From Nymphaea colorata (taxonomy: Eukaryota > Streptophyta > Magnoliopsida > Nymphaeales > Nymphaeaceae): a stretch of DNA of 64,000 nt. Below, one piece after another: positions 16,833 through 64,000 of the stretch; within the stretch, counting starts at the first letter, position 1, and each line of letters starts with the position of its first letter. The notes under the pieces are model-generated. The model saw only the letters and a program-made list of their open reading frames with translations. It had not been told where the DNA came from and made no database searches. The position numbers were made by a program, and so were the translations under genes. The stretch is from NCBI RefSeq assembly GCF_008831285.2, contig NC_045139.1, forward strand, positions 34,073,706 through 34,137,705. Direction: 5' to 3'.

Positions 16833-19800
16833 AAGAAAGGATTTTTCCTTCTTTGACTGCAGTAGAGCTAGTCAGGATGAACGACCAACCATGGTTGATA
16901 AATGATAAGGGGGTTGCCAGCAGACATGGACAAGACCCTGGTGGACACAGCCACCATGGACCCAAATCCTATGAGGGATCTTCAAGTCATTGTGTGCAAG
17001 TGTCCACCATGGGCCACAACTGGGCCTGATCTACGAGTAAGGACCAACAACATAAAGACTTTCAAGTAGGAACTAAATTTTTAAGCAAAGAAGTATGACA
17101 ACAAGCATGTTCCTTCAATTAGAAGAAAAATTATAAATTATAATGCCATGGAACTCATGAAGCTTGTACATACATCACCGAACACTGCAAATCTCTCCTG
17201 AATTGCATCTTGTAGCTTATTTTCTGCTTCTGTTTCAGTTATCTCTGAAGGTCCATCCAAGAAAGTTATCAATCAGCACATACCAGCATATTGGAGAAAC
17301 CATAGAATATCATCCACATCCACAAGCCAATGATAAACAATTCAATTTTTCTAAAATGAAACTAACATTTTATATAATGAAGAACATTCAGCAATATGTT
17401 ACAATCTTTCGAGCATCTGCTGAAAATTTAAGAAAGCATTTCAATAAAACCAACAATTTGCTACCTTCTCCCTAATAAAAAGCCAACGATCATGGCCAGT
17501 GCAGCATAGAAAGCTAATTTTTTGAACGCATATGTTCAATAACTAACACAAATATGCACTTTAATATTGTTTCTAGCAAGCATAATCTGCAATCCTGTAC
17601 TTCCTACAACAACCATGTGATAGAATCACATGGACCCAAACTCAGGAGAGAAAACCCATAAAAACAGAGGAACGTAACACATGAAACATGAAAACAAACA
17701 TAAGGCTTTTATATTTTCCGTAACTTGTAAGGATGATTAACCAACAAACTAAGTCACCTACCTACATCAGAACCTCAAAACTTGTCTAAAACGTAACCAG
17801 TGAAACGAAGCCTAACCACCACCCCCACCCACCCCCCCAAAAAAAAAAAAAAAAAAAAAAAAAACAAACCACCACCACCAACAACAACACACACACACAA
17901 AGATGCTCACAGTGAAGGGACAGAGATGCTCACAGTGAAGAAGACAACATGCCCCACCTTAGAAGATCCCAACGCATTCGTCATCCCATTCACAGGTGGG
18001 TTAGCTATGATTCTTTATCACTTGATTTTCAGTTATTCATGGCAAAAGTTGGCAAGGAGGAAGAACCTACTTCATTTGATCAAGCATCAAAATCACATCA
18101 TTGGAGAAAGGCTATGAAAGAAGAAATGGATGCCTTGCATGAATGTGGAACATGGGAGATCGTTCCGAGGCCACACGAAAAGAACGTAGTGGGCTCCAAA
18201 TGGGTATACAAAATTAAATACAAACCTGATGGCAGCATAGAAAGACACAAAGCAAGGTTAGTAGCGAAAGGGTTTACACAACAATATGGAGAAGATTATG
18301 ATGAGACATTCAGCCCTGTGATCAAAATGGGAACAATTCGCGTGATTATATCATTGGCAGTTGAATATGGATGGAGACTACATCAAATGGACGTGAAGAA
18401 TGCTTTTCTTCATGGTGATTTAAGGGAGGAAGTATATATGGAACAACCTCCAGGATACGCAAACCAATGTTATCCGTATCGTACGATACGGACGCGTATC
18501 GTACGATACGTATCGTCCGTATCATCATTTTCGATACGGTACACCTAATCAATACGATACGCGTATGTATCGTACGCGTATCGCACGATACGGGAGTAAA
18601 ATTAAAAAAGGGGCCGTCGGGCCCCTTTTTTGCTTCTTATTCTCAAACCGACGCTCCTCTCTCTCTCTCTTCTTGTTTCTCAACGCTGCCTGAGACGTGG
18701 GAGGGAGAGATTTTCTCCATTGCATCAAGATTTGCCGGTGAAGAAGCTTCATTCCTCGTTGTGGGGAGTCTTGGGACGGTGGGAAGCTTGGAGAAAGAGG
18801 GTTTTTTGGTTTTTAACACCAAGAAGGTAAGAAATAACTCATTTTTGCCGTTGAATCGTTCATTTCTCTTATTTCGTACATTTATTTGTATGTTTTTACT
18901 TGTTTTGTAAAGATATAATGTCGGATCCTACATGGCAGTGGTGTACAAGGGTGAATCCCAAAAATAGATTAAGAGTTAAGTGCAATTATTGTAAGCAAAT
19001 CATATCAGGAGGGATTTCTCGCTTTAAACACCATATAGCTGGTACACACAGCGATGTGGCTGCTTGCAATGGCTCCCAAGAGATCCCATTGCCAGCGTAT
19101 GTAAAGCACCAGTGTCAGCAACTTCTTGATGCAGTGAAAGCAAGTAGGATTGAAAAGGACATGGAAGATGCGGAGGAAGGATATGGGGACCCACATGAAG
19201 GAGAAGAAAGTGAAGGTGAAGATGTTCAACTTGAACAAGAAGATGTTGGTGTCAGTTTGGAAACAACTAAAGGGAAAGGCATCATGCATGGTGGTGGTTC
19301 TTCTGCAACCAGAAAAAGAAGAGGTGCAAGTGTAAGTTCAGTTTCACGAGGACGTGGCAGAAGTCAGGGTCGTACTGGTGGTGGTAGAGTACCTACTATG
19401 AAGTCGAGCAATATGTCTGGTTCGATCAAGAATTTTTTTCCCAATTATACTGCTGCTGGTGCTCAGCCTGAGATTCGTATAGCCATGCAATCAAAGGATA
19501 TTATTGAAGCAGCAGATGAAACCATAGGAAGGTGGTTCTATGATGCATCCATTCCCTTCAATGCAGCAAACTCTTATCATTATCAGCCTATAGCAGATGC
19601 GATTACTAGTGTAGGGCGAGGGTATAAAATGCCCTCTTTTCATAAATTGCGAGGTAAAATTCTCAACAATATAGTTAGAGATGTGAAGACATATTGTGAT
19701 GAACTAAAATTGAGCTGGAAAGCTACAGGATGCAGTGTAATGGCAGATGGGTGGACAGACATCAAGAACAGAACATTGGTAAACTTCCTTGTATATTGCC

Positions 19801-22800
19801 CTCTTGGTACTATGTTCTTAAAATCTGTTGATTTGTCTGATACTCCTAAGACTGCTGATGTGTTGTTTGGGATTTTTGATAAAGTTATAGAAGAAGTTGG
19901 GCCTGAAAATGTCGTACAATTTATCACTGATAATGCAGCAAATTATAAAGCTGCAGGTGAAATGTTAGCAGCACGATATGGGACATTTTATTGGAGTCCA
20001 TGTGCTGCTCACTGTGTAAATCTTATGCTTCAGGATCTTGGTGAAAGGGATGATATGAAGTTGACAGTTCACAGATGCCAAGAAATCACGAAGTTTATTT
20101 ACAATCATGCTTATGTCTTGAATTTGATGAGGAAATTCACAAATGGGGCTGAATTGATTCGACCTGCACAAACACGGTTTGCTACAAATGTTTTGACTGT
20201 GCAGGGTATAGTCAAGCAAAGAACTTCTCTCAGGCAGATGTTTTCAAGTGATGATTGGGCTGCATATCCACATGCCTATAAAAGAAAGGCTACGACAGTT
20301 GTGGATACCATCTTCGATGTTGACTTTTGGGAATCATGTGTGCACTTATTGAAGATTTGTGTACCTCTAGTGAAAGTCCTCAGATTAGTTGATAGTGAAG
20401 ATAGACCTTCTATTGGATATTTATACGAGTCTATGGATAGAGCCAAGGAGGCCATTAGAGATAATATGAAGGGAAAAAAGAAGTTGTACATGCCTATATG
20501 GAAGATTATAGATGAAAGGTGGTCTGGACAACTTCATCGCCCACTTCATGCAGCAGCCTACTACCTAAATCCTGCTATTAGATATCTTCCCACTTTTAAG
20601 AAGGACAGAGAGGTCGAGTATGGCATGTTGGATTGCATTGATGTGTTAGTAAGTGACAGTAAAGAACAAGACACTATCCATATGTCGATCAACAAATATG
20701 ATACGGCTTCTGGTACCATGGCGAGAGACACAGCAGTTCGATGCAGGACAACTATGCGTCCAGGTATTAGAAAAAGAAACTTTATACTTTTAGTTTTTGT
20801 TGTTTAACTTTTATTCTACCTTCTCATATATTTATTGCTGACAACATTTTTACTTTCCATCTGTTATTAGATTTGTGGTGGGAAAGGTTTGGGCCTGATT
20901 GCCCAGAATTAAGGAAGCTTGCAATTAGAATCCTCAGTCAAACATGTAGTGCAACTGGATGTGAAAGAAATTGGAGTGTATTTCAGCACATCCATAGTAA
21001 GAAGAGGAATAGGCTGGAACATAAAAGGTTGAATGACCTTGTTTATGTTCGTTATAATATGAAGTTGAGACAAAGGTAAACATTTGTTTTGTTATACAAG
21101 AATATCAAATTCTGATATATATTTTAATCTCTAACAATTTGTTAATTTTTTCTCTTGTTAGGCAACTAGAAACAACATCTACGAGGAAGCATCACAATCA
21201 ATATGATCCTATCTTCATTGACCATTTTGATATATTAGATTATTGGGTTGAAGAAGAACCAGCTGCAATACTTGATGAGGACGATCTTGATTTTTTGAAT
21301 GTTGAAGGAGCAGCAGAGATTGTTGAAGAAGGAGAGGTTGGGTCGGAGCAATGGAATGTTGGTGACATTCCATTTGCAACAGAGGGGATAGAAGAAGAAG
21401 TTATTGAAGAAAATGAAGATGATGATGAAGAATGAAGATGATGATGCAAATGACGATTGACGATGCTTTTTGTTTTGAGTTTTGAAAACTATGTCAATAT
21501 GTTCTGAGTTTTGACTTCTGAACTTATGAATTGTGATGTAATTGAATACTCTTAGGTTGTTTAGTATGTTATTTTGTTTTTTGAATGTTTGATTTCTTAT
21601 TTTGGAATGTCTTGTTCATATGCATACCTCATACTTCATAGTTCATATACATGAATGATGAATGTTCCTTTACTTTAAATACATTTTTCTTGAATTTTTC
21701 TGATTTTTACTAGTTTTTTCGGATTTTTTTAGATTTTTTCTGATTTTTTTCTATTTTTTATAAATTTTTAATATTTTTTACAAATTAAAAAATTAATTTT
21801 ACGATACGTTACGATACATTTACGCTACGTTACGATACAGCGTATAGGTCGGCCCGACCGATACACGATACGATACGGCAGTGATAACATTGACGCAAAC
21901 TAAGAAAATCTACTTGTGGACTTAAACAGGCCTCACGTTCGTGGTTTGACAGTTTCTCTTGCAAGATTCAAGAATGTGGTTTTCGGAGATGTCCTCTAGA
22001 TCACTCTCTTTTCATTTATCGAAAGGAAAACATATTTACTTTACTTCTTATATATGTTGATGATATTGTTATCACAGGCAATTCAGAAAAACACATAGAA
22101 GAATCTAAAGTTTTGATGATGCAAAACTTCAAAATGAAAGAGCTTGGTGATTTACGATTCTTTCTTGGAGTGGAGATTGATAGGCACAATAATCGCCTCA
22201 CATTGACACAACAGAAATACACGTTGGATCTGCTGAAAAAGTCAGGTATGTCTGATTGTAAGCCTGTTGGAACTCCTAGTGTTCTAAATCAAAGACTAAG
22301 TGCTCAAGATGGGGAGTTATATGAAGATCCTACGCAATATCGAAGTATTGTTGGGGCACTTCAATATCTTACATTTACTAGACCAGATATTATATATGCT
22401 GTGAATCAAGTATCTCAATTTATGCATGCACCTAGAGATACTCACATGGATGTTGTCAAAAGAATATTAAGATATCTTAAAGGGACAGCAGGAGATGGCT
22501 TAGTTTATGGTAAGAGTGAAAATATAACTACTGGACATCAACTTATGACATTCACAGATGCAGATTGGGCTGGAGATCCCGATCAAAGAAAGTCCATTTC
22601 TGGTTTTTGTATTTTCATTGGACGTAATCTTGTGTCTTGGAGTTGTCGAAAGCAAAAGGCAGTAGCAAGATCCAGCACTGAAGCTGAATACAGATGCATG
22701 GCTGCAGGTACTGCTGAAGTTACATGGGTTAGACATTTGCTAGAAGACATTGGAGAAAAGATTAAAACATCAATGTTAATGTGCGATAATCAAAGCGCTA

Positions 22801-23387
22801 TTAACATTGCCTTTAATCCCATACAACATGGTCGAACAAAGCACATTGAGATTGATCAACACTTTGTTAGACAAAAGGTGGAAGACAAGGAGATTCAGCC
22901 TATTTATGTTCATACAGATGAACAAGTTGCAGACTTATTTACAAAAGGATTAACAAAGGAACGATTCTGGTTTCTAAAAGGCAAGTTGTACATGGTGCAA
23001 AACCATGCACAACTTGAGGGAGGGTGTTAAAATATAAATCATTCACCAGCACGTTGAAGAGGAGTCTCTTAGGATTCCACCTCCTTGTAGAATGTATTAA
23101 AATATTTAATGTCCTTGTAACATGTGAAGAGTCTCATAGGATTCTATGTTGTAGTTAATATCCTTGTTATATGGGAAGTCTCCTAGAATTCTATGTTGTA
23201 GTTAATATCCTTGTAATATGTGAAGTCTCTTAGGTTTCTATGATGTAATTAATGTCCTTGGAGCTTGTGAAATCTCCTAGGATTCTACGATTGGAGACTC
23301 TTAGAATTCTGGAAATGGGATTATAAATAGAGGCCGTGCAAACCATTTTGGCTACGGCTTCTTCTCCTCAGTTTCTTCTTGTTTTCA

Positions 23388-23419
<32 letters not shown>

Positions 23420-26400
23420 ATCTCTATCTTCCTACGTGAGTGTTGTTTTCTGGTTACAGATATTGGTGCTAGATTTCTATCAAGTAGCAACAAATTCTGG
23501 TGAAGAAAACTTTTGTAGTATGTGGAAAAGGTGACATGCTAACAAGAGTTAAATTATATGCCACTGCCAACAAAATCACCTGCAACAGCACCTACGGTTG
23601 TCCCAACATTTGGCAAACTAAGTTCTGTACGAACACCCAGTCCACCAACAGCAGGACCCCATGTAAAAGGCCCAGCACTCAGATCTACAAATGCCCATCT
23701 GCCATAAATCATACACATAATAAATATAGAAGGAGAAAAGAAACACAATGCATAAATACTGAGACATTAACATAAAACAAATCTTATGTGATATCACAAA
23801 CCTGTCTCTTCCTATCCATGTATCAGTGAGACATTCAGGATGAAGACCATCAAGTTCTCCAGATTTAAGTTCCTTCTTAAACAGAAGCCTCAGATCCACA
23901 TTTGAACCATGCAGTATCTGGTCCACAACATGATCAAATTCAGGGGAATATGCTAAGCATCACATTTTCATAACTAAAAAATGGAAATATTAGTACCCTT
24001 TGACCAATGTTGTGGACTAGAGAAGCAGCATCCTTTCCTTGGTATAACTGCTCCATACTTTTTAAAACATCTGAACAAGCATTTGACCATTCAACCTGCA
24101 TTATGTAGGACATAATCAATACATAGACAATGCCGTACTCTCATTCTAATCTCTTTCCATCATTTAATAAATATATGACATTTAACCAAGTGGCACATGG
24201 ATAATATTAGCAAAGAGACATGCCATTAGAAGATACAAATACAACAAGCATGTTGTATTAGCAATGCCTAAAATAAATGGCACATCCAAGGCCATAAAAT
24301 TTAATAACTAAATTGTCAAATCAAGGTAGCTTATCAGAGACACAAATCAATCTAAAAAGAGAAGACTCACAGTGTCAACATCTTCTGTTGTAGTCCATGC
24401 AAACTTTAGCATAGGATGCTTCCCATAAAGTGGTCTCTTTCCCTTATCAAAATCTAGAAAACAAAGAACAGAGTAGACAGTTATTAGCTGAATAACATAG
24501 TTTTAGTCAAAGTGTGGCTATTTGCGCTAAGAACATTTACTCAGGACTACCATAGGTACACCAAAATTTTACCAAGGATGAATGATTGCTCATATAAAAT
24601 CCAAATGAAGTTAATGAACATACCAAAAAGATTTCCCCATGACTTTTCTGATTGCAGAATCCTAGAACGCAAATCCACATTCTAGAGAATAAGCTTCAGT
24701 ATATTAGTAAAATCATAGACATAAGGACAAGAAAAGCATTAAACAAAACAAGGAAATCTGAAAGAAAAAGGCCCGTCTAAAGAAGCCTATGTAATGTTCA
24801 TCAAAACTTTAAGCAGAAGAAAACACCAAAAGCATACCTCCTTAAGAAGATCTATTTCTGACTCTGATAGTCCTCTTCTGTACACAAGAACATTCTATAC
24901 CATCAGTTAATCTAGAAGAAATATCTAAATTGTGACATTGTCACGTGTTAACTTGTTTAACACTTGCACACCAGTCATGTAGAGACAACCATACCTATAG
25001 CCATAGCGAACTCTTTTCATGTTGCGCTTGGGGTTCAAAACAAAAATGTTATAAGCATTTCTAAGTTCAAGGTAATCAATTAAACTTGTGAAAAGATAGT
25101 CCATGACATCCATATCAACTTGCCAAAGGACTTGATCATCATCCCTGTGAAAACCAATTCCAAAAAGAATTAGTTGAGATAAACAACATCTGAGACAGAA
25201 GCTAAGTCAAAAAAAGCAACCAATCAACTTCACCAAGAAAAGAAAATGGAAGAACCAGCAACAGACAAAGACATAAAACATTACACATACATACATACAT
25301 ATATATAGCCAACCAACTACCAGACAACTGAAACACGCTTCTCTCTATCTCACAAGAGACAAAAGAAAGAAAGAGAGAGAGAAATTAATGATTAAATTTG
25401 TACAGCTATTTGAAAATATCAAATGTCTAGTACATGCATCAGATCTGTTCCTGAAAAGAAAGTGCAGGCATTATTTTTGAGGTCATTATCCAGAATATAA
25501 TGGGTGAACTTCCTTACTGGACACTCACTATGCAGAAATATAGGATTGCAAAATTGTCATTACGACCATTCTGTGTTGCTGTACGATAAATTTCAGGTAT
25601 TGAAAATCTGTTTGCTACATTTGCAAGCATCTTTAACAAAAAAAGCATTTTAAACATATTAAACTCCAATAGATGTAAAATATTTTGTCAGGGAGGCATC
25701 AAAAGCTACCTAGATGTCACAATAAACATTCATCAGCAAGCCGTAAACTGATCCATTACACTGTTCCCATTGTTGAAAAAAAAAGAGAGAGATAGAGAGA
25801 TTAAGAAAACAGCAGATATCCATGGATTTGAAAGCCAGTAACAGAACAACTCGAAGGATTGCATTGTCTATTGAGTACCCTTACACGTATAAGTACCAAA
25901 CAATAATATTTAAATTTTAAAATGTTGAGAATAGACAATGTTGTAGCCAAACTGCTAAGCATAAAGGGCTAATCCACAAAAAGTGGAATTAGATTCACAT
26001 CCTTGGTTAAGTTGCATGATTTACCTGGTATCTGATACATTATCTTTACGAGACAGAACTTCTATGGCATGCTCAAACACAGAAGTGACTTTCTCTCCCA
26101 TTTGTATAGCATGGACAGAGAAACTGCAAATAGTTTGCAAATCAATCACATCAACAACAAACAGATATAAAACCATGTCTGTAACCAAATATATATACAG
26201 TTAAGAAGGTCTAGATAAATTACTTGTAATTTACATGACTAAAAAGGGGGAGATGGTGGCTTGATTTTCCCTCTAAGCTGGACTTAGAAAAAGCATTTGA
26301 AGGCTCCTCAATCTGTGGAACTCGAGTATGCTCAAAAACATGATCAATTTTTGTAAACCACCTTTCTATCTCTTCAGGACCAAGCTTGAATTCTGTAAAC

Positions 26401-33533: not shown

Positions 33534-33741
33534 CCTGCGTTCAGCGGTCATTCAGGTACCAAGTGGCTTTCTTCGACGCGAGCCGAACTTTCACCGTCTG
33601 GCACGGCAGAAACTTCTATGGAGCTGCAATCTGTACACCTGCGTTCAGCGGTCATTCAGGTACCAAGTGGCTTTCTTCGACGCGAGCCGAACTTTCACCG
33701 TCTGGCACGGCAGAAACTTCTATGGAGCTGCAATCTGTACA
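33534..33741. repeat. Perfect 104-bp tandem duplication
   Basis: The block starting CCTGCGTTCAGCGGTCATTC at 33534 is repeated at 33638 with no difference that I can see. It is GC-richer than the surroundings. Overlapping open frames across it arise from the duplication (104 is not a multiple of 3) and are not taken as genes. Confidence 0.93.
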
Positions 33742-34438
33742 CCTTGTTGTGCGGCTTTCGATGTTCGGATGACACATCGGTTGCCTGCACAATTTGGGGC
33801 ATTTAGCATGTGTGTTGTTGCTACGTTACAGATTTCTGTGTTGTGAAATAGTGAAAATTTGTGGCATTTGGAGCTGAGTCCAATTATTGGCGAATAGAAG
33901 GCATCAGATACAAGAGAAAATGGTATGCGGAGAAAAAAACATTTGTACCGACGCGAGCTTTCTGATCGTGTCAATCAAAATGTGTGCTAACTAAATATTT
34001 TAATGAATCGTGTTCCTATCATGTTAGTACATAGCATTTTTGGATAGATGTTTTGCAACATGATGTTCTTGCGACCGGCTTTTACAAATAACTGAGGTAA
34101 TTATCTCTTGATGCACTTTCAAAGGGGTTTTATATCTTTGCGAGTTAGAGGAAATATTCATTGTTTTGACTCTATCCATAATCTAAGTTGCTTTGGCAGA
34201 GTACGAGTTAGGGTCTGTTGTAACGACGGCCGGAAATGCTTTCCATGAGATTGAAGAGGCTGCGCATCCATAAAAGCATGGCTCCAGTATTGGAAAACGC
34301 ATAAGTGGAAGGCTGGAAGCTCTGCTCTTCTGCACAAAACAATTGGCAGGCCTCTTTTAATTGGACATTTCAAACAAAAGTGTAGGAAGCTGACGACCTT
34401 TTCCGATGTATTTCCATGGTCGACAGGTCTCACTCCCC

Positions 34439-35561
34439 AACATTTGCGAGATTTTTCGCAGTCAATGTTCCTTCCATTTCCATAAATTTTAACTCCAAAA
34501 TGAGGAAAAGGCATTAAATTCTTGTTTGATCAATTTAATCTTTAGAGAAAATTGACAGAATAAAGATGAAATTGTGAATCCAACTGAGCGTTATGCAACA
34601 GGAATACTAACATTGTCTTATGAATCTGAATCTGTTTCAAAATTATCGAAGACTGATGTTATGTAAACTTACCCTAATCTTGAGGACCTCTGTTAGTTCT
34701 TGTTGTCAAATGTAAACTTACCCAACATTTGGGGGATTTTTCGCAGTCAATGTTCCTTCCATTTCCATAAATTTTAACTCCAAAATGAGGAAAAGGCATT
34801 AAATTCTTGTTTGATCAATTTAATCTTTAGAGAAAATTGACAGAATAAAGATGAAATTGTGAATCTAACTTAGCGTTATGCAACAGGAATACTAACATTG
34901 TCTTATGAGTCTGAATCTGTTTCAAAATTATCGAAGACTGATGTTATGTAAACTTACCCTAATCTTGAGGACCTCTGTTAGTTCTTGTTGCCAAATGTAA
35001 ACTTACCCAACATTTGGGGGATTTTTCGCAGTCAATGTTCCTTCCATTTCCATAAATTTTAACTCCAAAATGAGGGAAAGACATTAAATTCTTGTTTGAT
35101 CAATTTAATCTTTAGAGAAAATTGAAAGAATAAAGATGAAATTGTGAATCTAACTGAACGTTATGCAACAAGAATACTAACATTGTCTTATGAATCTGAA
35201 TATGTTTCAAAATTATCGAAGACTGATGTTATGTAAACTTACCCTAATCTTAAGACCTCTGTTAGTTCTTGTTGCCAAATGTAAACTTACCCAACATTTG
35301 GGGGATTTTTCGTAGTCAATGTTCCTTCCATTTCCATAAATTTTAACTCCAAAATGAGGAAAAGGCATTAAATTCTTGTTTGATCAATTTAATCTTTAGA
35401 GAAAATTGACAGAATAAAGATGAAATTGTGAATCTAACTGAGCGCAACAAGAATACTAACATTGTCTTATGAATCTGAATCTGTTTCAAAATTATCGAAG
35501 ACTGATGTTATGTAAACTTACCCTAATCTTGAGGACCTCTGTTAGTTCTTGTTGCCAAATG
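34439..35561. repeat. Tandem array, ~285-bp unit, about four copies
   Basis: Units begin with AACATTTG at about 34439, 34724, 35009 and 35293 (periods 285, 285, 284). Each contains 'TTTTCGCAGTCAATGTTCC' (with small variants), 'GAAATTGTGAATC' and 'GATGTTATGTAAACTTACCC'. Copies differ by a few percent, so amplification was fairly recent. No ORF or known satellite is recognised. Confidence 0.93.
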
Positions 35562-36687: not shown

Positions 36688-39600
36688 CTATATGGTGTCG
36701 TTTAATGCACACCCTTTTGTCTCCTGTTGTAGAAGTAAAACAGCTACACCCGACGAAAATATTACTATCTCAAACAAAAAAATTGATAAGATTTGGTGGC
36801 AGGCATGCAAGAGAGAAACTGCCACAAGGGGGCATAGCATCCCACCAATTCTTCCCACAGAGCTAGCAGTTCCAAAGCCGGTGGTCCTGACCGTTGTTGG
36901 GTACACCTATGGAAAAGAACACACATTTACATAAATTAGCAACAAAAACCACAGTGAGGATGCCACATGGATAGACATTCACAAATATAGAATGGAACTT
37001 AATCAATCAGCCCTTCATAATTTTTCCTGTTACTTTGTCCAAAGGAAAAGGAAGGATTTCTTTTCAAATTCATTTCTAAGTAACTAATAGAACCTTTTTG
37101 TCCCAGCCGTATTTCTGTCGATGTTTTCATCCTTGCCTAGTGTTCTTAGTTAGTCCCTGAAGTTAAATTTGCCAACTAAATCTGTTTTTCTTTCAAAGCA
37201 ACACAAGTATCCTGAAAAAGGGAAAGACATAAGAAGCTAATAAAATAATAGATAAGCATTTTTCAAATGACATAAGCCATTTTGCTAGACCTTAGCAAGC
37301 TGCTAATAATGGTTAAAGTAATAAAATGATGAATGTGCCTTGAAACTGCAAATGTGAGGGACAGATTTGTTGATCGCAGTAAGGCAAGGACGGATGTATG
37401 AATTGCCATCAAGTTAGGTTTAAGTTTGTAAAAGATAAAAAAAATAAAAAAACAATGGAACCCACTTTCAACATGGATCATATTGAGACCAGATGGAGTA
37501 ATTTATCAGCTAGACTCAAATATCAATTCTGAATCTGACCCTCCAATTTAATTCAAGGATCTCCTTCTTAGTATATTACCCAGGCTGCTGTTTAATTTCA
37601 CTGAAAACACACTCTGAAGCCAAATTCAAGCTGAATTTCCTTACGAGCTACATAAGTACTCCAACAGTTCCTTAAGCGTGATCAAGCAATGCAATTATGG
37701 TGGAGATGAATGAAAGATGACAAGTTCAAACGGATATCATGCCTCTCAAATGATGTTTTAAAGTTTCCTGTTTCATATGTTGGCCATAAAATGTCAAGCA
37801 AGCTACACATGCAACCCATCTAATATTCACACAAAATCATGGGGGAGGGATGCCTATAAATGAAGGTGCAATATGATATCAGAAAAAAGGTTTCAGTTAC
37901 AAACCTCTGGCACATAAATATAGAGGATAGTGAAGCTTCCTGAAATAAATAAGCGAGCTCCAAACAGCAGGCAAGTGGTTACAAGCTCAGATTGGTGGAA
38001 TACCAGTGGAATAAGTAGGATACAACACATAAAAAGCATAGCTGACATTGAGAGCTTCCGCCCAATCCTATCTACCACTGCCATTGATAATAGAAGCCCA
38101 GGAAACTCTGCAGAAAATTCCCATTGTATTTTCAGCCACAAATTTTTGAGGAAATCAGTCTAGTTTACTTAGAGATTTTAGAAATAATAAACATGAGACT
38201 GAAATGGGAAAGAATTCTGTTTTCACAATAGTTTACCTGCGAAGCTTGTGACAAGAACATCTCTGTAAAGATTCTTGTTTTTTGAATCAATTTTGTGGAA
38301 GTCATTTGGTACACAGTTCCTGCTAGTGCTGCTCAACTCAGTGGTAAGCAGTACAAGGCCATAGTATGAAAATGCATGTGCGAAGAAAACCATCCATATC
38401 AAAAGAGTTGTTCTGATTAATTTTCGTGAAAGAAGCAGAGATAATGTTGTCATAGCCCCTACTTGGTTTTCTGCTTCTTCAATAACTTTGCCTTCTAATT
38501 TTCTCACTGACAGCAAGTGTAAGCCTTCTGTCTGACAAGTTTGTAATTCATTCTCAATAATATGATCAGAAACAAGAATGCCAGATGGGAGTTGCTTCTT
38601 GTTTATAACTGCAATATTCTCCAAAATATGAAGGGCATCAGCTGTCCTTCCTCTCATACAGAGATATCTGGGTGACTCTGGCACCATTCTGTAGAACAAA
38701 AGCAGGATAATCGAGGGGATAGAAGAAAGTGCAAGCAGCCACCTCCACCCAAGTGTTGGCATAATAAGCTGAGAGAGAAAGTGTGTGTGAGAGAGAACTT
38801 AGCTCTTATCAAACATATAAGGACAGCAATTTAATAACAAGAAGAAGTTTGGATAAATTTGACAATTAAGAGAATGAGCTAAACATATATTTACATATTG
38901 GATAGAGAAAATTTGCCAGGTCCCAAATTAAGTAAAAAATGGTAAACCTAACTAGGCATGTGTAGTTGACTAATGTCACCTGGTGTCCTGGCTAATAATC
39001 CAAGAAATATTGAAGCTAGTGCATGCTTTCATAAGAATAAGATACTCTCTCTCTCATTCTTTCTCTCTCTCATGAAGAATGACCCTTTCGCACCGAAATT
39101 GTGTTAGTTTAAGTTGTTTATCTAACCCTGCATTCTTGAAGATTGAGCCTTCGCACCTATAAGTTCCTGAACTTAGTGGATTCTGGCTTCCTCAAACAGG
39201 TAACTTTCATTCCCAAATCTCAGAAAATTTCCCTCAGCTGGTTAGAATACATAAATATTCAAAGCTGAACCTGTCAAAATTCAACCCATTCTGCCCCCCT
39301 GTCCGACCATCATCTAAAGAATCTGCATCTTCTTAAGCCCGAATATTTGGTCCTCAAATTTGGGTTAGAATGTCTATATACAGTGTTGTGTGTATTGACC
39401 CATACCATGCAATATGTTATGATATGTAATGTATTGGTTGAGAAACCATTTAGTTACACCCCTTGTAACAGTTATAGAGGTGTAATGTGCAATATCGTAT
39501 CATATGGTGTTGTATCGCATGATAACAGTGTTATATCAACAATCAGTGCAACCTGGTGCTGTATCATAAGATACAGTGCGGTATGCTCCGTAGCATCAGA

Positions 39601-42600
39601 CACAGGAGTGGCAAAAATGGGGATGCGGATATGATTTTCCATTTTCAGGTATAAATTTCCTGTCCTACTCGACTTCTAGACACTCTTAGGAGTTGTGTGA
39701 GGGAGATTGTCATTTTGAAGAAAACATTGATTTAAGCGTAGATTTTCATGTGAGAGATCGATTGTGGTTGAACAAAGAGGATTTCCTAACTTTCCTTCTT
39801 TTTGTGCATGAAAACCTATTCTACAATAAAAGGTATAAAATCTTTCACTTTTACCATATATTTCTAATCTTGCATGGCAATGGTGCTTAGAAAATTTGTT
39901 GAAACTAGCTGATATTAGCTTATAAGTCTTGTAAAAGAGATGCTCCAAATCTCTCTGCTAAAACATTTAGTTAGAATTCATGAAAATATGGACCTATGCA
40001 CCTATAGAGATATGCCAAGAGCTATGCATAGGCAACGTATGCAAATGGTTAAAGCTCTAAAAGCCAGATTGGGAGACATAAAAGAAGCTGAAATGAGCTC
40101 TTATGAGCCTTGGGAAGTGGAGAATGAGGATAATATTGAGCTTTGTATGTTTTATCTTATAGATGCTAATGCAAGATCAGATGTGGCTAGTTCAAGGTAA
40201 AAAGAGAATGCTAATGCATGCAAGAGGTAGGTCGAGTGCTTCTCCCTTAGAAATTTTTTCCTTCGCACACAATTCCAAATTCTCAACCTGAAATTTGAAC
40301 AACTATGTCCTAGGAAAATAAATGCAGTTGAGAGATGGCCTTATGATACATGTTCTCCACTTAATGTGACAAACTCATTTTGTTTTTATGCTATCACAAG
40401 TAGTTTCATTAGCCCCATGGTATAAAAGGAAAAATTCGTGAAGCAAATGTTAAAGAAGCAAGAACATCTTGTGATGAATTGAGATTGAGTTGGAAAGAAA
40501 TAGGTTGCAGTGTCATGGGAGATAGGTGGGATTCTTTCGGACTCCAAGTGTTAATTGCATCAATGTTATGTTTAAACATCTTGGCAGAATAGATGAGATG
40601 AAATCAACTAATGAACAATGTCAGGAGATGAAGAAGAATACATTTATAAATGTGCATACTATAAATGTGCATATGTATTGGGTTTGCTGCGAAAATATAT
40701 ATATGGAGGTGAAATGATCCAGCATACAGAAACTAGAATTGAAACAATTATTTTGGCAATACAGAGTACAGTAAAATAGGGAAATGCTTTAAGACATATG
40801 TGCTTAAACAATAAAAAGGTTGTCTCCATTCTCATAAGAGAAAGTCAAGGGAAGTTGTGGATATGTGGATATTGCATTCAATAGTCAATTTGGGCATCAT
40901 GCATCAAACTATTGGAAATCAGAATACCCTTGGCCTTGTTAAATTTTTGCAATTAGTTGACAGTGAAGATAGATAGGTCTGCCATCAGGTACCTCTATGA
41001 AGCTATAGGCCAAACAAAAAATGCTGTCAAAGAGAAAGAGAATGTAAAGAGAAAAAAAGAGTTATATCTAACTACATAAAGGATTCTGGGCAACTTCACT
41101 GGCTCTTCATGCAGTAGCATATTACTTAAATCCTACATTGAGATTTACTGCAACAGGTGTTTAGATATATGGTGGAATAGGTTTAGGCTGACTAGCCAAT
41201 CCTTAAGGCTTTGTAATTAAAAACTTTAGTCAGATGTGGAATGCAAGTGGACGTGAAAGACATTGAAGGGTTTTCCAATAGATCCACACTAGGAAGAGAA
41301 ATAGATTAGAATGTAAAAGGTTGAATGAATCTCCTCTCAATATTACATAAGAAAAAGTTCAAAGATTTGGATTATACCCATGCTAAAGAAGCCTCCAAAA
41401 TTGCACCAAGTGTCCAAAATCCAGAAAAGATGACCATCCAAGTTCCTCTACTCCGAGAAGGAACAAATTCCAAGAACCAAGAATTAAGAACAGGACCACC
41501 ACCCAAGCCAATTCCAACTATACAGCGGAAGGCAACCAATGAAATATAAGTTGGGGCAAAAGCACTCAGACACCCGACTCCACCAGTGACAAAAGCTGTT
41601 GCTAGAAACCCATTCCTGGCATGTACCACCAATCAAGATAGAAAGTGTTCAATCAGCACAATATATCAAAGCACAATTTGTAAGTAGTAGCATTTTTCCT
41701 TCATCAATTAAGTACAAAACGAAAAAATAACGACCCATGCAGATAACAATTGTAGTCCAAGGCACAAAATTACTGTGAACAGCAAGAATTTTCATATTTT
41801 ATCACTACTTGAATTTATATAAATGTCTATGTGTGTGTGTGCATGTGTGTGTATACTGTATATATATGTTGTTATGTGCTAGAACAATGCACAGTAATAT
41901 AGGTTGAATATGCAATTTTAATATTTATTTCTGTGTGTGTATTTATTTGTCTGTCTTAATTTTCCACTTTTTGTAAAGTTTGGTCTTTTGACCAAAAGGC
42001 TTGACTACCCATTGTTTAGTCAAATTGGTTCCGACTAGAACCATCGGGAATGGCCAACAGCTGGCTGACTCCTTGGCTAATTGTACATATAGAGGGTCTT
42101 TCCCTCTGGGGTAAACCAAAACATGTGGGTTGTTACAAAGGACACAAAACTAAATTAATGGCCAAGACTACAGACAAGAACATGGAATAGATTACAAAAC
42201 TTTTCTCCACATGGCTAGAATGTCCACCATTGGAACCCTTATAGCTGTGCTTTAATTGGAAATTGGAACTTTTACAAATGGATGCAAAGAAAGTGTTGAG
42301 GAAGTCTATATGGATGTTGTATCTTCAATGAAAACCAAAACTGGTAGGTTGTCACAACTCACAAGGACACAAAACTAGATTAATGGCGAAAAACTACATC
42401 CAATAACATGGAATAGATTATGATGAAACATTTACCATATGGCTAGAATGACCACTATTGGATCCATTATGGGTATTGCTTTATATGGAAATTGGAACTT
42501 TTTACAATTGGATGCAAAGAAAGAACTCTGGAATGGAAACCTTAATCAGGAAGCCTAAATGGATGCTTCATCTTAAATGAATGTGCCAAATGGTAAGGTG

Positions 42601-45600
42601 TTTAAGTTAAGAAAAAATTTTCTGACCTCATACCTGATAGAAATGTAGCACCAATATCTGTAACCCGAAAACAGCACTCACGCAGGAAGATAGAGAGAGA
42701 GAGAGAGAGAGAGAATGAAAACAAGAAGAAACTGAGGAGAAGAAGCCGTAGCCAAAATGGTTTGCACGGCCTCTATTTATAATCTCATTTTCAGAATTTT
42801 AAGAGTCTCCAATCGTAGAATCCTAGGAGATTTCACAAGCTCCAAGGACATTAATTACATCATAGAAACCTAAGAGACTTCACATATTACAAGGATATTA
42901 ACTACAACATAGAATCCTAGGAGACTTCCCATATAGATATTAACTATAACATAGAATCCTAGGAGACTCTTCACATGTTACAAGGACATTAAATATTTTA
43001 ACACATTCTACAAGGAGGTGGAATCCTAAGAGACTCCTCTTCAACGTGCTGGTGAAGGATTTATATTTTAACACCCTCCCTCAAGTTGTGCATGGTTTTG
43101 CACCATGTACAACTTGCCTTTTAGAAACCAGAATCGTTCCTTTGTTAATCCTTTTGTAAATAAGTCTGCAACTTGTTCATCTGTACGAACATAAATAGGC
43201 TGAATTTCCTTGTCTTCCACCTTTTGTCTAACAAAGTGTTGATCAATCTCAATGTGCTTTGTTCGACCATGTTGTACGGGATTAAAGGCAATGTTAATAG
43301 CGCTTTGATTATCGCACATTAACATTGATGTTTTAATCTTTTCTCCAATGTCTTCTAGCAAATGTCTAACCCATGTAACTTCAGCAGTACCTGCAGCCAT
43401 GCATCTGTATTCAGCTTCAGTGCTGGATCTTGCTACTGCCTTTTGCTTTCGACAACTCCAAGACACAAGATTACGTCCAATGAAAATACAAAAACCAGAA
43501 ATGGACTTTCTTTGATCGGGATCTCCAGCCCAATCTGCATCTGTGAATGTCATAAGTTGATGTCCAGTAGTTATATTTTCACTCTTACCATAAACTAAGC
43601 CATCTCCTACTGTCCCTTTAAGATATCTTAATATTCTTTTGACAGCATCCATGTGAGTATCTCTAGGTGCATGCATAAATTGGGATACTTGATTCACAGC
43701 ATATATAATATCTGGTCTAGTAAATGTAAGATATTGAAGTGCCCCAACAATACTTCGATATTGCGTAGGATCTTCATATAACTCCCCATCTTGAGCACTT
43801 AGTCTTTGATTTAGAACACTAGGAGTTCCAACAGGCTTACAATCAGACATACCTGACTTTTTCAACAAATCCAACGTGTATTTCTGTTGTGTCAATGTGA
43901 GGCGATTATTGTGCCTATCAATCTCCACTCCAAGAAAGAATCGTAAATCACCAAGCTCTTTCATTTTGAAGTTTTGCATCATCAAAACTTTAGCTTCTTC
44001 TATGTGTTTTTCTGAATTGCCTGTGATAACAATATCATCAACATATATAAGAAGTAAAGTAAATATGTTTTCCTTTCGATAAATGAAAAGAGAGTGATCT
44101 AGAGGACATCTCCGAAAACCACATTCTTGAATCTTGCAAGAGAAACTGTCAAACCACGAACGTGAGGCCTGTTTAAGTCCATAAATAGATTTTCTTAGTT
44201 TGCAAACCCATGCATGAGAGTCTCCTTTCGTGTATCCTGGAGGTTGTTCCATATATACTTCCTCCCTTAAATCACCATGAAGAAAAGCATTCTTCACGTC
44301 CATTTGATGTAGTCTCCATCCATATTCAACTGCCAATGATATAATCACGCGAATTGTTCCCATTTTGATCACAGGGCTGAATGTCTCATCATAATCTTCT
44401 CCATATTGTTGTGTAAACCCTTTTGCTACTAACCTTGCTTTGTGTCTTTCTATGCTGCCGTCAGGTTTGTATTTAATTTTGTATACCCATTTGGAGCCCA
44501 CTACGTTCTTTTCGTGTGGCCTCGGAACGATCTCCCATGTTCCACATTCATGCAAGGCATCCATTTCTTCTTTCATAGCCTTTCTCCAATGATGTGATTT
44601 TGATGCTTCATCAAATGAAGTAGGTTCTTCCTCCTTGCCAACTTTTGCCATGAATAACTGAAAATCAAGTGATAAAGAATCATAGCTAACCCACCTGTGA
44701 ATGGGATGACGAATGCGTTGGGATCTTCTAAGGTGGGGCATGTTGTCTTCTTCACTGTGAGCATCTCTGTCCCTTAGTCGTCGACTGTAGATAAGACCCG
44801 AATACCGATGTGCATCGTTGCTCTGTTCATTATTGTTTTCGTGATGACTTAATGACTGTGTTGGATCTTCTTGATTTTCACTTTGAGCCATATCCGACGG
44901 TTGTATTGCTCTCTCTGAATCTTCACTTTGAGGCACATCATTTTCTATAACAGGATCTGCATTGAATAACTGTGTACTGGTCCAGGGATCATAAGATTCA
45001 ATGGTCATAGGCATTTCATTTGTATTATCAAAACTATGTTCATCAAAAATGACATTTCTTGAAGTTTTGATACGTTTAGTTGTTGGATCATAGCATCGAA
45101 AACCTTTATATTCATCAGCATATCCAACGAATCTACATTGAATAGCTTTGTCTTGAAACTTGTTCCTCAAGGCAGCATCAACGTGAACATAGCATACACA
45201 ACCAAAACCTTCAAGTTCTTGTAATCAGGTTGTTTGCCTAAGAGTGTAAAATATGGCGATTTAGACATCAAGAGTGTCATAGGCAAACAATTTATTATGT
45301 ATACAGCAGTATGGAAGGCTTCAGTCCACAAGGAAATGGGCACATTAGTATCATGCATCATGCTCATGGCGCTTTCAACTATATGTCGATGTTTCCACTC
45401 AACTACACCATTTTGTTGTGGTGTGTAAGGGCAGGAAATTTGTCTAGTTATCCCTTTTTCACGTAGAAATTCAATAAAATCAAGCGAGGAATATTCTCCC
45501 CCTCCATCACATTGAAAATGCACCACATTGGATGAAAATTTAGTTTGAATCATGGCATAGAAGTTTCGAAATATGTGAGGTACTTCTGATTTGTGTTTCA

Positions 45601-47653
45601 TGAAGTAAATCCAGGTGAAACGTGAGTAAGAGTCAATGAATAAGACATAATATCTTGACCCAGAGATGGAATCAATAGGGGCTGGCCCCCATACATCAGA
45701 AAAAATAGTTTCAAAAGGTTTGGAAGCCCTTTGATTTATATTATGGAAAGGTAAAACATGACTCTTACAAAGTCCACAACTTGAACATTTTTTGACACTT
45801 GAAGTAAGAGGTAAACTTGATCTTGGAATGAGACTATCTGTGACAAGTTTTTCAATGAAATGTCGACCACAGTGTCCTAGCCGACTATGCCACAAATCAG
45901 ACTCCAAAAATTGGTTAGGGCCCCTTACTTTTGATTGAAAATGGCAAGAACTTGGCACTGATGACGCATTATGAGAAAGAGAAAATGTCTTCAATCCTAT
46001 ATCAAAAGTGGATGAATCCTTGGGTAGACATTCCTTGAGGACGTACATATTCCCTTGACGCTCCCCTCTAGCGAACATTTTCTTCGTTTGGAGGTCCTTG
46101 ACATAGACAGAAGAAGGTGTGAATTCAACAGAAGAGCTTGTATCATCAATGAGTTTAGAAATGGATATGATGTTCTTTTTGATATTGGGAGCAAGAACAA
46201 CATTAGACAGTGATAGAGACGAGGATGACAATGGAATATGTGCATTTCCAATATGTGTAATAGGATGAGATTTTCCATCACCTGTTATAATGCAACTTCT
46301 ACCGTAATGAGGGGATAAGTTAGTCAATTTACCTGCATTTCCTGTCACATGGGTAGCTGCACCTGAATCCAAGAACCATTCTCCCTGCTCATTTTGCTTT
46401 ATAGTCATCTTTGAGAATGCGGCCATCAATAGCTGTTGCATATCTTCAGCGGTGGATTTAGAACTTTGTCCTCCTTGTTTATAATCATGTCTTACCCCTT
46501 TGTTTTTATTTTGAGGATTAAACCAACATTGTGCCTTCATGTGTCCTTTCTTGTTGCACTGAAAACAAATTGGTATTTTTCTTGAAGTATCCAAAGGAGA
46601 CATACCTTGGTTATGTGGTGTTGGTAGAATGCCACGACCACTATGGTTGGAGTTCCCATGGCTCTTACCAAACTTTACATTCATAGCCAACACATTTTGG
46701 GAGTTCCCTTGATCAGTCCTTTCAATGACTCTTTTCATATTCATTTCATGTTGGAGAAGTTTACCTTGTAGTTCGTTGAAGGAAGGCAGAACAGGAAGGA
46801 CCTCAAGAGCTGTAATAAAAGCATGATAATCATGCCCAAGTCCATTCAAGGTTTGCTGCACCTTTTCCTTATCAGAAATGTTATTCCCTGAGGCAGCAAG
46901 TTGGTCTGCGACGGCCTTAATACGCCCCAAATAATCCATGATAGACGTTGAACCTTTGCTCAAATTCTGAAATTCTTTCTTTAAGTACATAATTCGAGCT
47001 TCTGATATTTGGGAAAAGGTATCAGCAAGGGTTTCCCATAATTCTTCTGCAGTACAATCATCAGAAACTGAAAGTAACACTTGTTGAGATAAAGTGGACA
47101 AAATATACGCAACCAGACTTTGATCACGTCTCATCCACATAGCATGTTCAGGATTGTTGTCTTCATGAACAGCAATAACTTCTCCTGCCTCATTTTTTAT
47201 TTCCTGTAAGACGGATATTGGTGGAGCCTTTGTTGAACCATCGAGATGTCCAAAGAGGCCTTGACTTCTTATGAAAGGCATGATTTGCCTTTTCCAGATC
47301 AGATAATTCTCATGGTTGAGTTTTTCGGTAATAAGGTGAGGAAGAAAACTTGAGGACATGCCAGAATGCGAAAGGTTTTCCATGACAGCAGAAAGGAATG
47401 GTATATAGGTAGAAGATGAGAGGGAAAGAAGACACGATATAACAAGATGTGTCCTTGGTAAGCAAGAAGAAAAAGGAACAAGAATTGCGCAAGGGAAAAG
47501 TAAATTCAGGATAGAGACAAGATGAGAAAAGAGTTCTAACCAGATCAGACTTGTTTGGGCATTTCGTTTGGTAGAGATAACGTAACCTGGCTCTGATACC
47601 ATGATAGAAATGTAGCACCAATATCTGTAACCCGAAAACAGCACTCACGCAGG

Positions 47654-47699
<46 letters not shown>

Positions 47700-49633
47700 A
47701 CAAGAAGAAACTGAGGAGAAGAAGCCGTAGCCAAAATGGTTTGCACGGCCTCTATTTATAATCTCATTTTCAGAATTCTAAGAGTCTCCAATCGTAGAAT
47801 CCTAGGAGATTTCACAAGCTCCAAGGACATTAATTACATCATAGAAACCTAAGAGACTTCACATATTACAAGGATATTAACTACAACATAGAATCCTAGG
47901 AGACTTCCCATATAGATATTAACTATAACATAGAATCCTAGGAGACTCTTCACATGTTACAAGGACATTAAATATTTTAACACATTCTACAAGGAGGTGG
48001 AATCCTAAGAGACTCCTCTTCAACGTGCTGGTGAAGGATTTATATTTTAACAATACCAACATGTAAAGCATAGTTTGATAGACTTAACAAAATTAATGAT
48101 GAAATGTAGGTTTAAATTTTGTTTTGCTAACATTGGCCTTCTTTCTTAAGAAAACTTATGCAGGGATTGTGATTTTGTTTCATCTTTCTATACATGGATG
48201 ACATGTTGGTAGCAGAAAGTGACAAAAAAGAACTAAGTTAAACATTTTTTTGGAAAAAAGTTTTAAAATTTACCAATTTCGGGTTTCTAACATATTCTCT
48301 GGAAATTGAATTTGCTTACTCATCATGAGGATGCATAATGTCACAAACAAAGCTTGTGTTAAATAAACTCCCAAAGGGATGAAAAGACCAAATGGCCATT
48401 TATAGAGCATGACTAGATCTGAGTTCATATCAGATCCAGGACCAGTACATAAGACACTGGAATAGCTCGACTTGACAACACATTGCTATACAGGGTGCAT
48501 TTTTACAGAGAGATGAGGGCCAAATGCTTTCTCTAGGAAGACTTTCATTCTCCATCAAGTGGGCAAAACTTTTGCCCTAAAAGAATGGTAAAAATGGGTA
48601 GTTTGCTGAAGATTCTGGCCTGTTGGATGACTCCTAGGACATGCACTTTTTGGTATGAAACATTTTCAATAGAAGCACTTACAAAGGCAATCAAAACTCC
48701 TTAAACACTTATTGGAAATAATTCAAGAACCTGTTCACTCATGGCCAAAGACCAGTCAAATCAGCAACATACTTACCCATGGTTGCAACTGGTCTGGTCC
48801 CAGGATCGAGGATTTGCAAATTTTAACTTTATTTACCCTACTCCATATATTCAGCTGAGCTGAGTCCAATTTTGTTTGTATCCCTGCTTTTACCTAGTTT
48901 TACTTTGGTTAAAGGCTAATCATAGTAAATTTCGTATTCTCACTTCTTGGACCTAAAAATGGACAGTGACTACGTATCTTTTGTACATTTTCTACACATT
49001 TACTATCATTTCCTTTGGAAATGCAGATGTCAAGACTAGTTGATATTTCATAGACATTTTTTCATCGACATGTAAAAAGAAAAGAAAGACACATCATTCA
49101 GAAATAGAGAACACATTCAAAAAATATTATAAAGTTGTAGTCCACAAAAGCCCAAGAATTTGTCTTGGGGTGTCTGCATGTCCAATTGCATATTTTTGTT
49201 AATTTTAATTTTGCATATAATATTTATAAATTTACAATATCGGCATATATATATAGCAAGAAAATTTTGTCTGGAATAGAATCAAACATGAAGAAAGTAA
49301 AATTGATCAGACGAAAGAAGCTAATCAACCAGAGAAAATAAAGATGTTAAGGATGAGATCTTGCCTTCTTCCATAGTTGTCAGAAACTATCCCCCAAGAA
49401 TATGATCCAACCAGCATTCCAGCAAAAACAACACTAGTAATCATGCTTTCTTGGTGGGAAGACAGGCCCCATTCTAACTGAACAGCTGGACCAACGAAAG
49501 AAAGAAGCATCACTTCCATTGCTTCTGATATCCATCCCATTCCAGCATAAGCAAGCATAAGTACTTGGAACTTTCCAAAACCAAGCACCAAAAGTGCATC
49601 ATCCACTGTATATGTTGAGGTATCACCTCCCAT
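36688..49633 (-). CDS. OCT7: Organic cation/carnitine transporter 7-like (NIAP-type MFS)
   Basis: Five coding exons (minus), 49633-49365, 41615-41378, 38768-38237, 38107-37905 and 36906-36688, give 1,461 nt and 486 aa, close to the usual ~500. The family is the plant OCT7/NIAP branch of the major facilitator superfamily, with nicotinate transport reported for Arabidopsis NIAP. Visible MFS signatures are DNYGRR after helix 2, FVPSRSRGTW after helix 4, PESPRYL in the central loop and VVDRIGRK after helix 8; twelve helices are expected. The product is probably a plasma-membrane protein. Intron 1 (about 7.7 kb) must begin with GC (AAG|GCAAGA) for the frame to continue into RNGFLA. It holds a young copia element. 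Intron 2 holds a decayed hAT. An AG acceptor sits directly before the ATG, pointing to a 5' UTR intron. Confidence 0.88.
39380..41370 (+). pseudogene. Decayed hAT transposon, related to the one at 18.5-21.9 kb
   Basis: Plus-strand similarity to the complete hAT runs in order. There is a left zone with GTATC/GATAC words and a CAGTGTTGTG start (39,380-39,600), a BED-finger remnant (39,950-40,080) and the 'TTGAGTTGGAAAGAAATAGG' match near 40,482. A stretch around 40,950-41,150 follows (GACAGTGAAGATAGA, GCATATTACTTAAATCC), then the dimerisation end near 41,220-41,330 (GGATGTGAAAGA-like, AGGTTGAATGA). Stops, indels and missing blocks are frequent. The remnant reaches almost to exon 2 of the transporter (41378). 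Confidence 0.75.
42080..42634 (+). pseudogene. Old copia RT remnant, left part (interrupted)
   Basis: Plus-strand translation shows broken RT motifs: 'TRLMAKNYIQ-HGIDYDETF' near 42,375-42,430 and 'QLD-K' like text near 42,510. An extra, shorter copy of the same segment lies at 42,125-42,290, so it is partly duplicated. It is cut at 42634 by the young copia and continues at 48053. Confidence 0.7.
42635..43073 (-). repeat. 3' LTR of the young copia element
   Basis: 439 bp, TG...CA. Read on the plus strand it starts TGATAGAAATG and ends TATATTTTAACA. It contains the same ~50-bp internal repeats as the other LTRs of this family. Confidence 0.96.
43068..47383 (-). pseudogene. Copia gag-pol, one frame break
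   Basis: The probable start is the ATG at 47383 (MENLSHSGMSS); the frame is also open upstream into the LTR. In order: a gag core (HENYLIWKRQI), a zinc knuckle CFQCNKKGHMKAQC, protease with LDSGAATH, GAG-pre-integrase HSRLGH, and an integrase core with SDVWGP, QCDGGGE and VVEWKHR. The residue after the catalytic Glu is Trp where Arg is usual. RT carries [21 protein letters not shown] and IYVDD. RNase H carries TDADWAGDP and SSTEAEY. The first frame ends at 45167 and the second opens at about 45,200. A single-base shift in a T-run between integrase and RT explains the split. The stop TAA overlaps the 3' LTR. Confidence 0.92.
43074..43085 (-). promoter_or_regulatory. Polypurine tract
   Basis: On the minus strand CTTGAGGGAGGG directly precedes the 3' LTR (TGTTAAAA). 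It primes plus-strand DNA synthesis in LTR elements. Confidence 0.85.
47586..47601 (-). promoter_or_regulatory. Primer binding site, tRNA-Met type
   Basis: On the minus strand TGGTATCAGAGCCAGG follows the 5' LTR directly. It is the same class of PBS as at 12069. Confidence 0.9.
47602..48052 (-). repeat. 5' LTR of the young copia element
   Basis: 451 bp. Apart from a longer GA tract it shows a single substitution relative to 42635-43073. A TATA-like TATAAATAG (minus strand) lies in the region complementary to CTATTTATA near 47752. Confidence 0.96.
48053..48480 (+). pseudogene. Old copia RT remnant, right part
   Basis: This is the continuation of the remnant at 42080-42634 after the young insertion. 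It shows a degraded YMDDMLVAESDKKE (the YVDD region) near 48,190-48,230, followed by LEIEFAYSS-like and 'MSQTKLVLN'-like text. It has many stops. Confidence 0.72.

Positions 49634-62255: not shown

Positions 62256-64000
<1,745 letters not shown>

Follow-up and report, generated by a model that had tools for sequence, protein, structure and literature searches.

A complete and probably autonomous hAT transposon of a recently spread family, with arrays of putative transposase-binding hexamers at its ends

The 64,000-nt stretch of DNA analysed here (the window) contains a hAT element of 3428 bp at positions 18465-21892 on the plus strand (the window copy). We conclude that this element is very probably a complete hAT transposon that was active in recent times and is likely to be autonomous; its transposase would dock through its BED domains on GTATCG/CGATAC hexamers clustered at the ends and would also move short copies in trans. 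The family has recently spread, together with its own short partners. It is a new family, ordinary as a kind and unusual in the regularity of its end sites; no description of it was found among the titles and abstract openings listed by our searches of an open-licence literature collection.

The preliminary description of this DNA had reported 10-bp inverted ends and a perfect 8-bp target duplication, and both are exact in the window copy. The left terminal inverted repeat (TIR) CAATGTTATC (18465-18474, plus strand) and the right one, GATAACATTG (21883-21892, plus strand), match at 10 of 10 positions, and the two copies of the target-site duplication (TSD) ACGCAAAC, at 18457-18464 and 21893-21900, match at 8 of 8. 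Across the 39 complete copies described below, the left TIR shows a single changed cell. The element splits a truncated copia retrotransposon (17915-23486, plus strand), which is nearly identical to another copia at 42627-48052 (99.4% identity across 544 bp, 97.2% across 1592 bp). Compared with the latter, the host copia lacks 28 bp precisely where the hAT element inserted, and the junction of this deletion, GGATAC joined to GCAAAC, is present in both TSD copies. Since both copies span the junction, the deletion preceded the hAT insertion and a chance TSD is very unlikely. The copia at 42627-48052 lies on the minus strand and is itself nearly complete, with long terminal repeats of 447 and 460 bp that are 96.7% alike and two long open frames.

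The transposase gene consists of three exons on the plus strand. Exon 1 (18918-20763) encodes the BED zinc finger, the DUF659 region and the catalytic-type residues D277 and D338; exon 2 (20871-21075) encodes the hAT dimerisation region with the catalytic-type E647; exon 3 (21162-21435) encodes an acidic tail and the stop. Intron 1 (20764-20870) and intron 2 (21076-21161), both on the plus strand, are bounded by GT-AG in 39 of 39 and 37 of 39 copies, respectively. Six splice combinations are open, and the one closest to the usual GT-AG consensus was picked by eye; with the two introns removed, the predicted frame runs for 774 aa plus the stop, reproducing the unbroken frame reported earlier. 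The product matches the Pfam models zf-BED (PF02892, 1.4e-05), DUF659 (2e-57) and Dimer_Tnp_hAT (PF05699, 2.4e-14), each above its own cut-off, and thus has both the N-terminal BED zinc finger and the C-terminal dimerisation domain of the hAT superfamily. From their motif, we take C22, C25, H39 and H44 to be the putative zinc ligands, and these are kept in 37, 38, 39 and 38 of the 39 copies. The three acidic motifs announced by the preliminary description were recovered as well: D277, D338 and E647, to judge by their motifs presumably the catalytic residues of an RNase-H-type core, are kept in 38, 39 and 38 copies. A search of PDB sequences with exon 1 gave no relative, the single match being a chance one (E 1.8), and no relative was found in the viral contigs searched.

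The genome searched is a 407.8-Mb assembly of 783 contigs. Searching it with the whole element gave 55 matches, with the best 40 of 1494 candidates scored, and the copy numbers given here are therefore lower bounds. We fetched 39 further loci, split two nested pairs and left out the truncated copies L041, L044 and L046, which gave 39 complete copies including the window copy. A perfect 8-bp TSD flanks 34 of them, and three more are off by one base; of the other two, L017 has a damaged right tip and L033 lacks a matching TSD. The spliced frame is open in 12 of the 39 copies, while in L016, L018, L019 and L023 a difference in length alters the frame, which ends at residue 759-761. Copies more than 98% identical to the window copy, which had been proposed as a check, do exist: five open-frame copies with different perfect TSDs are 99.4-99.8% identical to it over aligned bases. 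The corresponding BLAST values with gaps counted (97.6-98.8%) are lower because array lengths differ. Thirteen copies of one clade, the window copy included, show a mean difference of 0.50% over aligned bases (range 0.06-0.96%). Successive spreads give the tree of the copies a ladder-like shape; the window copy belongs to the youngest clade (n = 14), in which two copies have end branches of length 0. The ratio of nonsynonymous to synonymous change (dN/dS) between two groups of intact copies is 0.50 overall and 0.28-0.35 in the core and dimer regions; for intact versus old copies it is 0.14 in the dimer region, and within the youngest group it is 1.5, based on few changes.

Over 46 TSDs, T stands at position 2 in 26 and A at position 7 in 29, with both in 13 and a central TA in 4. 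Ac-type hATs prefer nTnnnnAn and Buster-type hATs nnnTAnnn; the composition found here tends towards nTnnnnAn. At two loci, L015 (C14:11500600-11508300) and L021 (C11:12109200-12116920), a young copy sits inside an older copy of the same family, in both cases in the right part of the older copy and with a perfect 8-bp TSD.

The hexamers are arranged differently at the two ends. In the following, a dyad is a head-to-head pair GTATCG-NN-CGATAC with a 2-bp gap, for instance GTATCGTACGATAC. The left subterminal array of the window copy (18476-18591) holds five GTATCG and five CGATAC, with dyads starting at 18476, 18496 and 18578; the first dyad forms the 16-bp palindrome CGTATCGTACGATACG (18475-18490, element bp 11-26) directly behind the TIR, which is exact in 28 of the 39 copies and in 11 of 12 copies of a sister family. 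The right array (21802-21876, minus strand) holds six hexamers in a single orientation. The earlier count of about nine and six hexamers is therefore right for the right end and has to be raised to ten for the left. Likewise, the back-to-back palindromes described as many do exist, but there are only three dyads in the window copy, all of them at the left. These numbers are far above chance: the left 130 nt contain 10 hexamers against a mean of 1.25 and a maximum of 6 in 2000 dinucleotide shuffles, the right 95 nt contain 6 against a shuffle mean of 0.56 and a maximum of 4, and the three dyads compare with a shuffle mean of 0.004. The whole window has 26 hexamers, against 8.2 expected and at most 14 in 100 shuffles, and 16 of the 26 lie in the element. 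In the genome the dyad occurs 2332 times and its reversed control 9 times.

The same asymmetry runs through the family, in that left ends carry both orientations and right ends only one, and GTATCG is found in the last 130 bp of 0 of the 39 copies. Adjacent plus/minus sites at the left are separated by a 2-bp gap in 153 of the 191 pairs that fall into the six gap classes listed, and in 54 of 67 pairs of the sister family. The commonest left array, as in L011, has 16 sites and five dyads, located at 12, 32, 123, 144 and 173; it is found in 10 of the 39 copies, including 7 of 13 young ones, and up to seven dyads occur in a left end. The window copy has a left array 59 bp shorter than that of L011, with 10 sites instead of 16. 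At the right end, the usual distances of the sites from the tip are 17, 22, 29, 55, 65, 76 and 86, with steps of 10 and 11 bp being common, and most young copies have six to seven of them. We also observed that the left array (18465-18594 in the window; L009, L017 and L030) varies by about 20 to 60 bp among copies that are otherwise about 99.5% identical, which indicates that array length turns over faster than the rest of the element. A 12-bp perfect inverted repeat, AAAAAAGGGGCC-GTCG-GGCCCCTTTTTT (18604-18631), marks the inner flank of the left array, and a T-rich stretch with a 10-nt period (21683-21782, plus strand) adjoins the right one. A second word, GTCGGGCC, is present near both ends, by eye in equal orientation relative to the tips: at 18616-18623 on the left, and on the right some 34-42 bp inside the tip.

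The sister family was recovered by a protein search of the genome, in which the best 71 of 1878 candidates were scored. It resembles the window family in its hexamer, site positions, left/right asymmetry and gene plan, and differs from it in its terminal bases, in its protein (64-67% identity, about 66%) and in having its own copies and short derivatives. Our set comprises 12 copies, two of them whole and ten known by their ends. Tips (CAATGTTGTA/TACAACATTG) and TSDs are perfect in all 12, the TIR variants being CAATGTTGTA or CAGTGTTGTA, and GTATCG is found in the last 125 bp of none of the 12. Left dyads lie at 12, 32, 124, 145 and 174 in 4 of the 12 copies, with gains or losses in the others. 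Site positions were then compared between L011 and S_L050, chosen as carriers of the commonest dyad patterns (10/39 and 4/12 copies, respectively). At offset +1, 15 of the 16 left sites agree within 1 bp, and 14 do so at offset 0; other offsets give a mean of 2.1 and a maximum of 9, and random placement a mean of 2.2 and a maximum of 8. The test is informative at 1 bp, since a second offset gives 15 as well once 2 bp are allowed. Between these two copies the left array is 70% identical with one gap column, as compared with 52% and 32 gap columns for the adjoining leader, 62% for intron 1, 70% for exon 1 and 80% for the right 95 bp. Overall, the comparison of tips, sites and spacing indicates that the tips changed while the hexamer word and its spacing stayed. 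Hexamer bases are alike at 84 of 89 positions and spacer bases at 33 of 68, after 24 columns that belong to a hexamer in just one of the families had been set aside; because columns that are hexamer in both families must mostly agree, this count is partly circular, and we rely on the position test instead.

More distant relatives were sampled through 12 extra DUF659 loci chosen from 150 scored. Seven of the 12 are sister copies with the array (93.2-98.6% DNA identity to L049), and L087 is a diverged sister-like copy with no clean TSD. In four DUF659 relatives at 34-40% protein identity, the upstream sequence read (about 1.1-1.3 kb) shows no array; the shared hexamer is thus shown for two families only.

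Both families are accompanied by short elements. A search with the left end (136 bp; best 40 of 494 candidates scored) led us to fetch 11 left ends absent from the earlier lists, and 8 of these belong to complete elements, 969-1157 bp long, in which most of the gene is missing but the tips are intact and the TSDs perfect. They fall into three deletion classes (449/2790, 570/2989 and 358/2800 in element positions). The 570/2989 junction is common to five copies with five different TSDs, which differ from each other by 0.4-1.4%. At L071, L072 and L075 the match to the element is unbroken through the whole stretch read; these contain the beginning of the gene, if not more of it, and were therefore excluded from the short count. 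In addition, five loci were taken from the first places of the genome-wide dyad list, picked for readable orientation. Three of the five are complete elements of 723-784 bp with perfect TSDs, two with sister-type tips and one with a window-type left tip; the remaining two are a longer sister-family copy and L096, which looks short but gave no matching ends and was rejected as a short element. This gives a total of 11 short elements (8 + 3) that combine the lack of a usable gene with a perfect TSD, and the 8 from the left-end search retain the hexamer arrays. Like Ac/Ds-type systems, this family includes internally deleted copies that keep intact ends and sit at independent sites. The occurrence of gene-less copies at many sites, and of one and the same deletion at five, argues that they were moved in trans by a transposase acting on the ends.

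Conservation of the left hexamers was analysed over bp 11-100 of the 39 copies, taking the window copy as the definition of the hexamers. Outside CpG, 1 of 785 cells has changed in hexamers and 245 of 1415 in spacers, and CpG cells have changed at 28 of 784 and 36 of 410, respectively; in the body of the element the changed cells are 2466 of 119,833 (non-CpG) and 186 of 3642 (CpG). At the right end, with the hexamers of the window copy, 6 of 783 non-CpG cells have changed in hexamers and 55 of 1399 in spacers. Each hexamer contains one CpG, and CpG observed/expected is 3.2 and 2.7 in the two ends, 0.44 in the body and 0.47 in the window. According to PMC12910297, methylation of such sites is implicated in the control of Ds in maize, while a recent assay found that it gave no prediction of movement. 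A methylation switch acting on the hexamers is possible.

The best reading of the hexamers, judged from the sequences, is that they are putative transposase (BED) binding sites, as in the left end of Hermes but multiplied; we read them so because they are the least-changing part of the left end and their positions are shared with the sister family. In the mechanism that we propose, a transposase multimer would dock its BED domains on GTATCG hexamers. At the left it would meet sites paired head to head at a constant gap of 2 bp, beginning with a pair immediately behind the TIR, and at the right same-facing single sites, many of them 10-11 bp apart. The multimer would probably collect several left dyads and then capture the right end, pairing the two. 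Cutting would take place at the CAATG tips and insertion with an 8-bp staggered cut, and the same enzyme would move internally deleted copies in trans, as in an Ac/Ds-type system. Such movement may continue at present: the window element may still move, given near-identical open-frame copies with different TSDs and gene-less derivatives mobilised in trans. Both ideas of the preliminary description, hexamers as binding sites and an element that may still move, receive strong though indirect support. We put forward a more specific version only tentatively, at somewhat below even chances. In it, the left end would be a docking ruler of fixed geometry, with about 16 putative BED sites in four to five palindromic pairs, their positions held while the tips and spacers of both families diverged; a large assembly would read the left end as pairs and the right end as phased single sites, and the CpGs of the sites would be a direct switch for host methylation.

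Several results weigh against this picture of a recently active, probably autonomous element recognised through its hexamers. At the right end, the changed CpG cells are 13 of 525 in hexamers and 13 of 437 in spacers. When hexamers are defined by the majority string, which adds a seventh right-end site absent from the young clade, the contrast outside CpG is reversed (21/840 in hexamers, 27/1654 in spacers). Conservation of the right-end hexamers is accordingly weak or absent, and conservation counts as a whole are biased by shared ancestry and by an aligner that favours like-with-like words. Taken as a whole, the left array is no better conserved between families than exon 1 (70%). As for the gene, 27 of the 39 copies fail the frame test (23 broken and 4 with a frame-changing length difference), and dN/dS is 0.67 in the BED region between intact groups, on few changes, 0.65 within the second group (B) and 0.68 among old copies; such values within groups and among old copies are expected when copies drift after insertion. 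In the acidic tail dN/dS exceeds 1; we put this down to the alignment and to differences in frame, and draw no conclusion from it. The search for an empty site recommended by the preliminary description came back negative, the host deletion junction without the element giving 0 matches genome-wide at up to 3 mismatches. Finally, its shortened left array may make the window copy less mobile than its kin.

We weighed two other explanations for the arrays. The hexamers might be mainly structural, with palindromes extruding as hairpins or cruciforms, so that structure rather than base-specific BED binding would mark the left end. Indeed, the earlier suggestion that the ends could form hairpins holds for the left end, which folds far above shuffles (z -5.8), but not for the right, which carries hexamers and does not fold (z -0.44). 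A longer hairpin at about bp 46-78 is found in several older copies (L033, L036 and L047) and in most sister copies; these hairpins have equal length and different, mutually compensated stem letters (GTATCGTATAGGTT.. versus GTATCGTATCGTTT..), which looks like compensated change. On the other hand, this hairpin is absent from the youngest clade, which spread nonetheless, and the left hexamer letters themselves are kept beyond what pairing would require. The hairpin idea is weakened because only the left end folds, because this folding results from the head-to-head sites, and because one longer hairpin is lost in the youngest clade. We consider a mainly structural role highly improbable and treat the hairpins as a by-product, with the exception of the compensated stems at bp 46-78. 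Alternatively, the arrays might be mutational by-products, palindromes growing and shrinking by slippage or gap repair, and the likeness between families would be descent without function. Array length does vary among near-identical copies (the window copy is 59 bp below L011, and L009 and L017 are longer), and between families the left array is no more alike than exon 1, at 70% each. Against this, change in the left end is far rarer in the hexamers than in the intervening spacers, and 15 of 16 left sites stay within 1 bp with one gap column, compared with 52% identity and 32 gap columns in the leader. Furthermore, change in the body is faster at CpG cells than elsewhere, so that neutral words rich in CpG would be expected to decay, whereas the ends still have a CpG observed/expected of 3.2 and 2.7; the arrays are also retained in 8 short copies. 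A purely mutational origin appears highly improbable as well.

A further explanation touches only the present tense of our preferred reading, that of a transposon still able to move: the family would be a relic that spread recently and of which no copy can move now, all being silenced or broken. CpG, which plants methylate, is dense in the ends, and in maize W22, according to PMC12910297, 18 of 19 assayed Ds2 loci showed no excision despite intact ends. Twelve of 39 open frames and two copies with zero-length end branches speak against it. We regard this explanation as doubtful, with a chance that is real and clearly the smaller one.

Other parts of the window hold possible relatives and repeats. 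At 39490-41340 lies an old, broken transposase relative with 74-76% DNA identity in its best pieces; no recognisable ends were found for the degenerate relative at 40254-41329, and, by eye, GTATC-like remnants at about 39490-39600 may be a decayed left array. A cluster of GTATCG/CGATAC-like words at 62168-62535 is perhaps a decayed short copy of the sister family; TAATGTTGTA resembles an end and AACATTG stands on the opposite side, but by eye there is no matching TSD, and it was rejected as a short copy. About four tandem copies of a 285-bp unit, 96-97% alike, occupy 34436-35561, and 33534-33744 is a perfect 107-bp direct duplication with a step of 104 bp.

Since it has numerous open copies that are nearly identical, and short partners at hand, this plant hAT makes end recognition testable beyond Ac and Hermes, and the site positions shared by two families make it possible to ask how many docked BED domains, at which spacing, are needed before the ends pair. 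Should the genome belong to a water lily, the family would also be a recently active one in an early-branching flowering plant.

Among known systems, maize Ac/Ds is alike in having autonomous elements with internally deleted partners, terminal hexamer clusters and an 8-bp TSD; according to PMC3260210, AAACGG hexamers in the terminal 200 bp of Ac bind the transposase cooperatively. The family described here differs from Ac/Ds in its hexamer and TIR, and in its head-to-head dyads with a 2-bp gap at one end only. Ac is not known to have such dyads or a DUF659 match. For Hermes of the house fly, PMC10368747 describes two BED domains that bind cooperatively to the STR1/STR2 quasi-palindrome at left-end bp 11-27, a left end contacted by three protomers from three dimers, and a right end that binds no BED domain. 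Hermes is the closest measured model, and docking of BED domains on dyads is proposed here by analogy. The likeness extends to the left palindrome (bp 11-27 in Hermes, 11-26 here), the left/right asymmetry and the BED zinc finger: as in Hermes, a head-to-head pair lies directly behind the left TIR and none is present at the right end. Unlike in Hermes, the left pair is repeated in the present family, the word is GTATCG, and the right end also carries sites.

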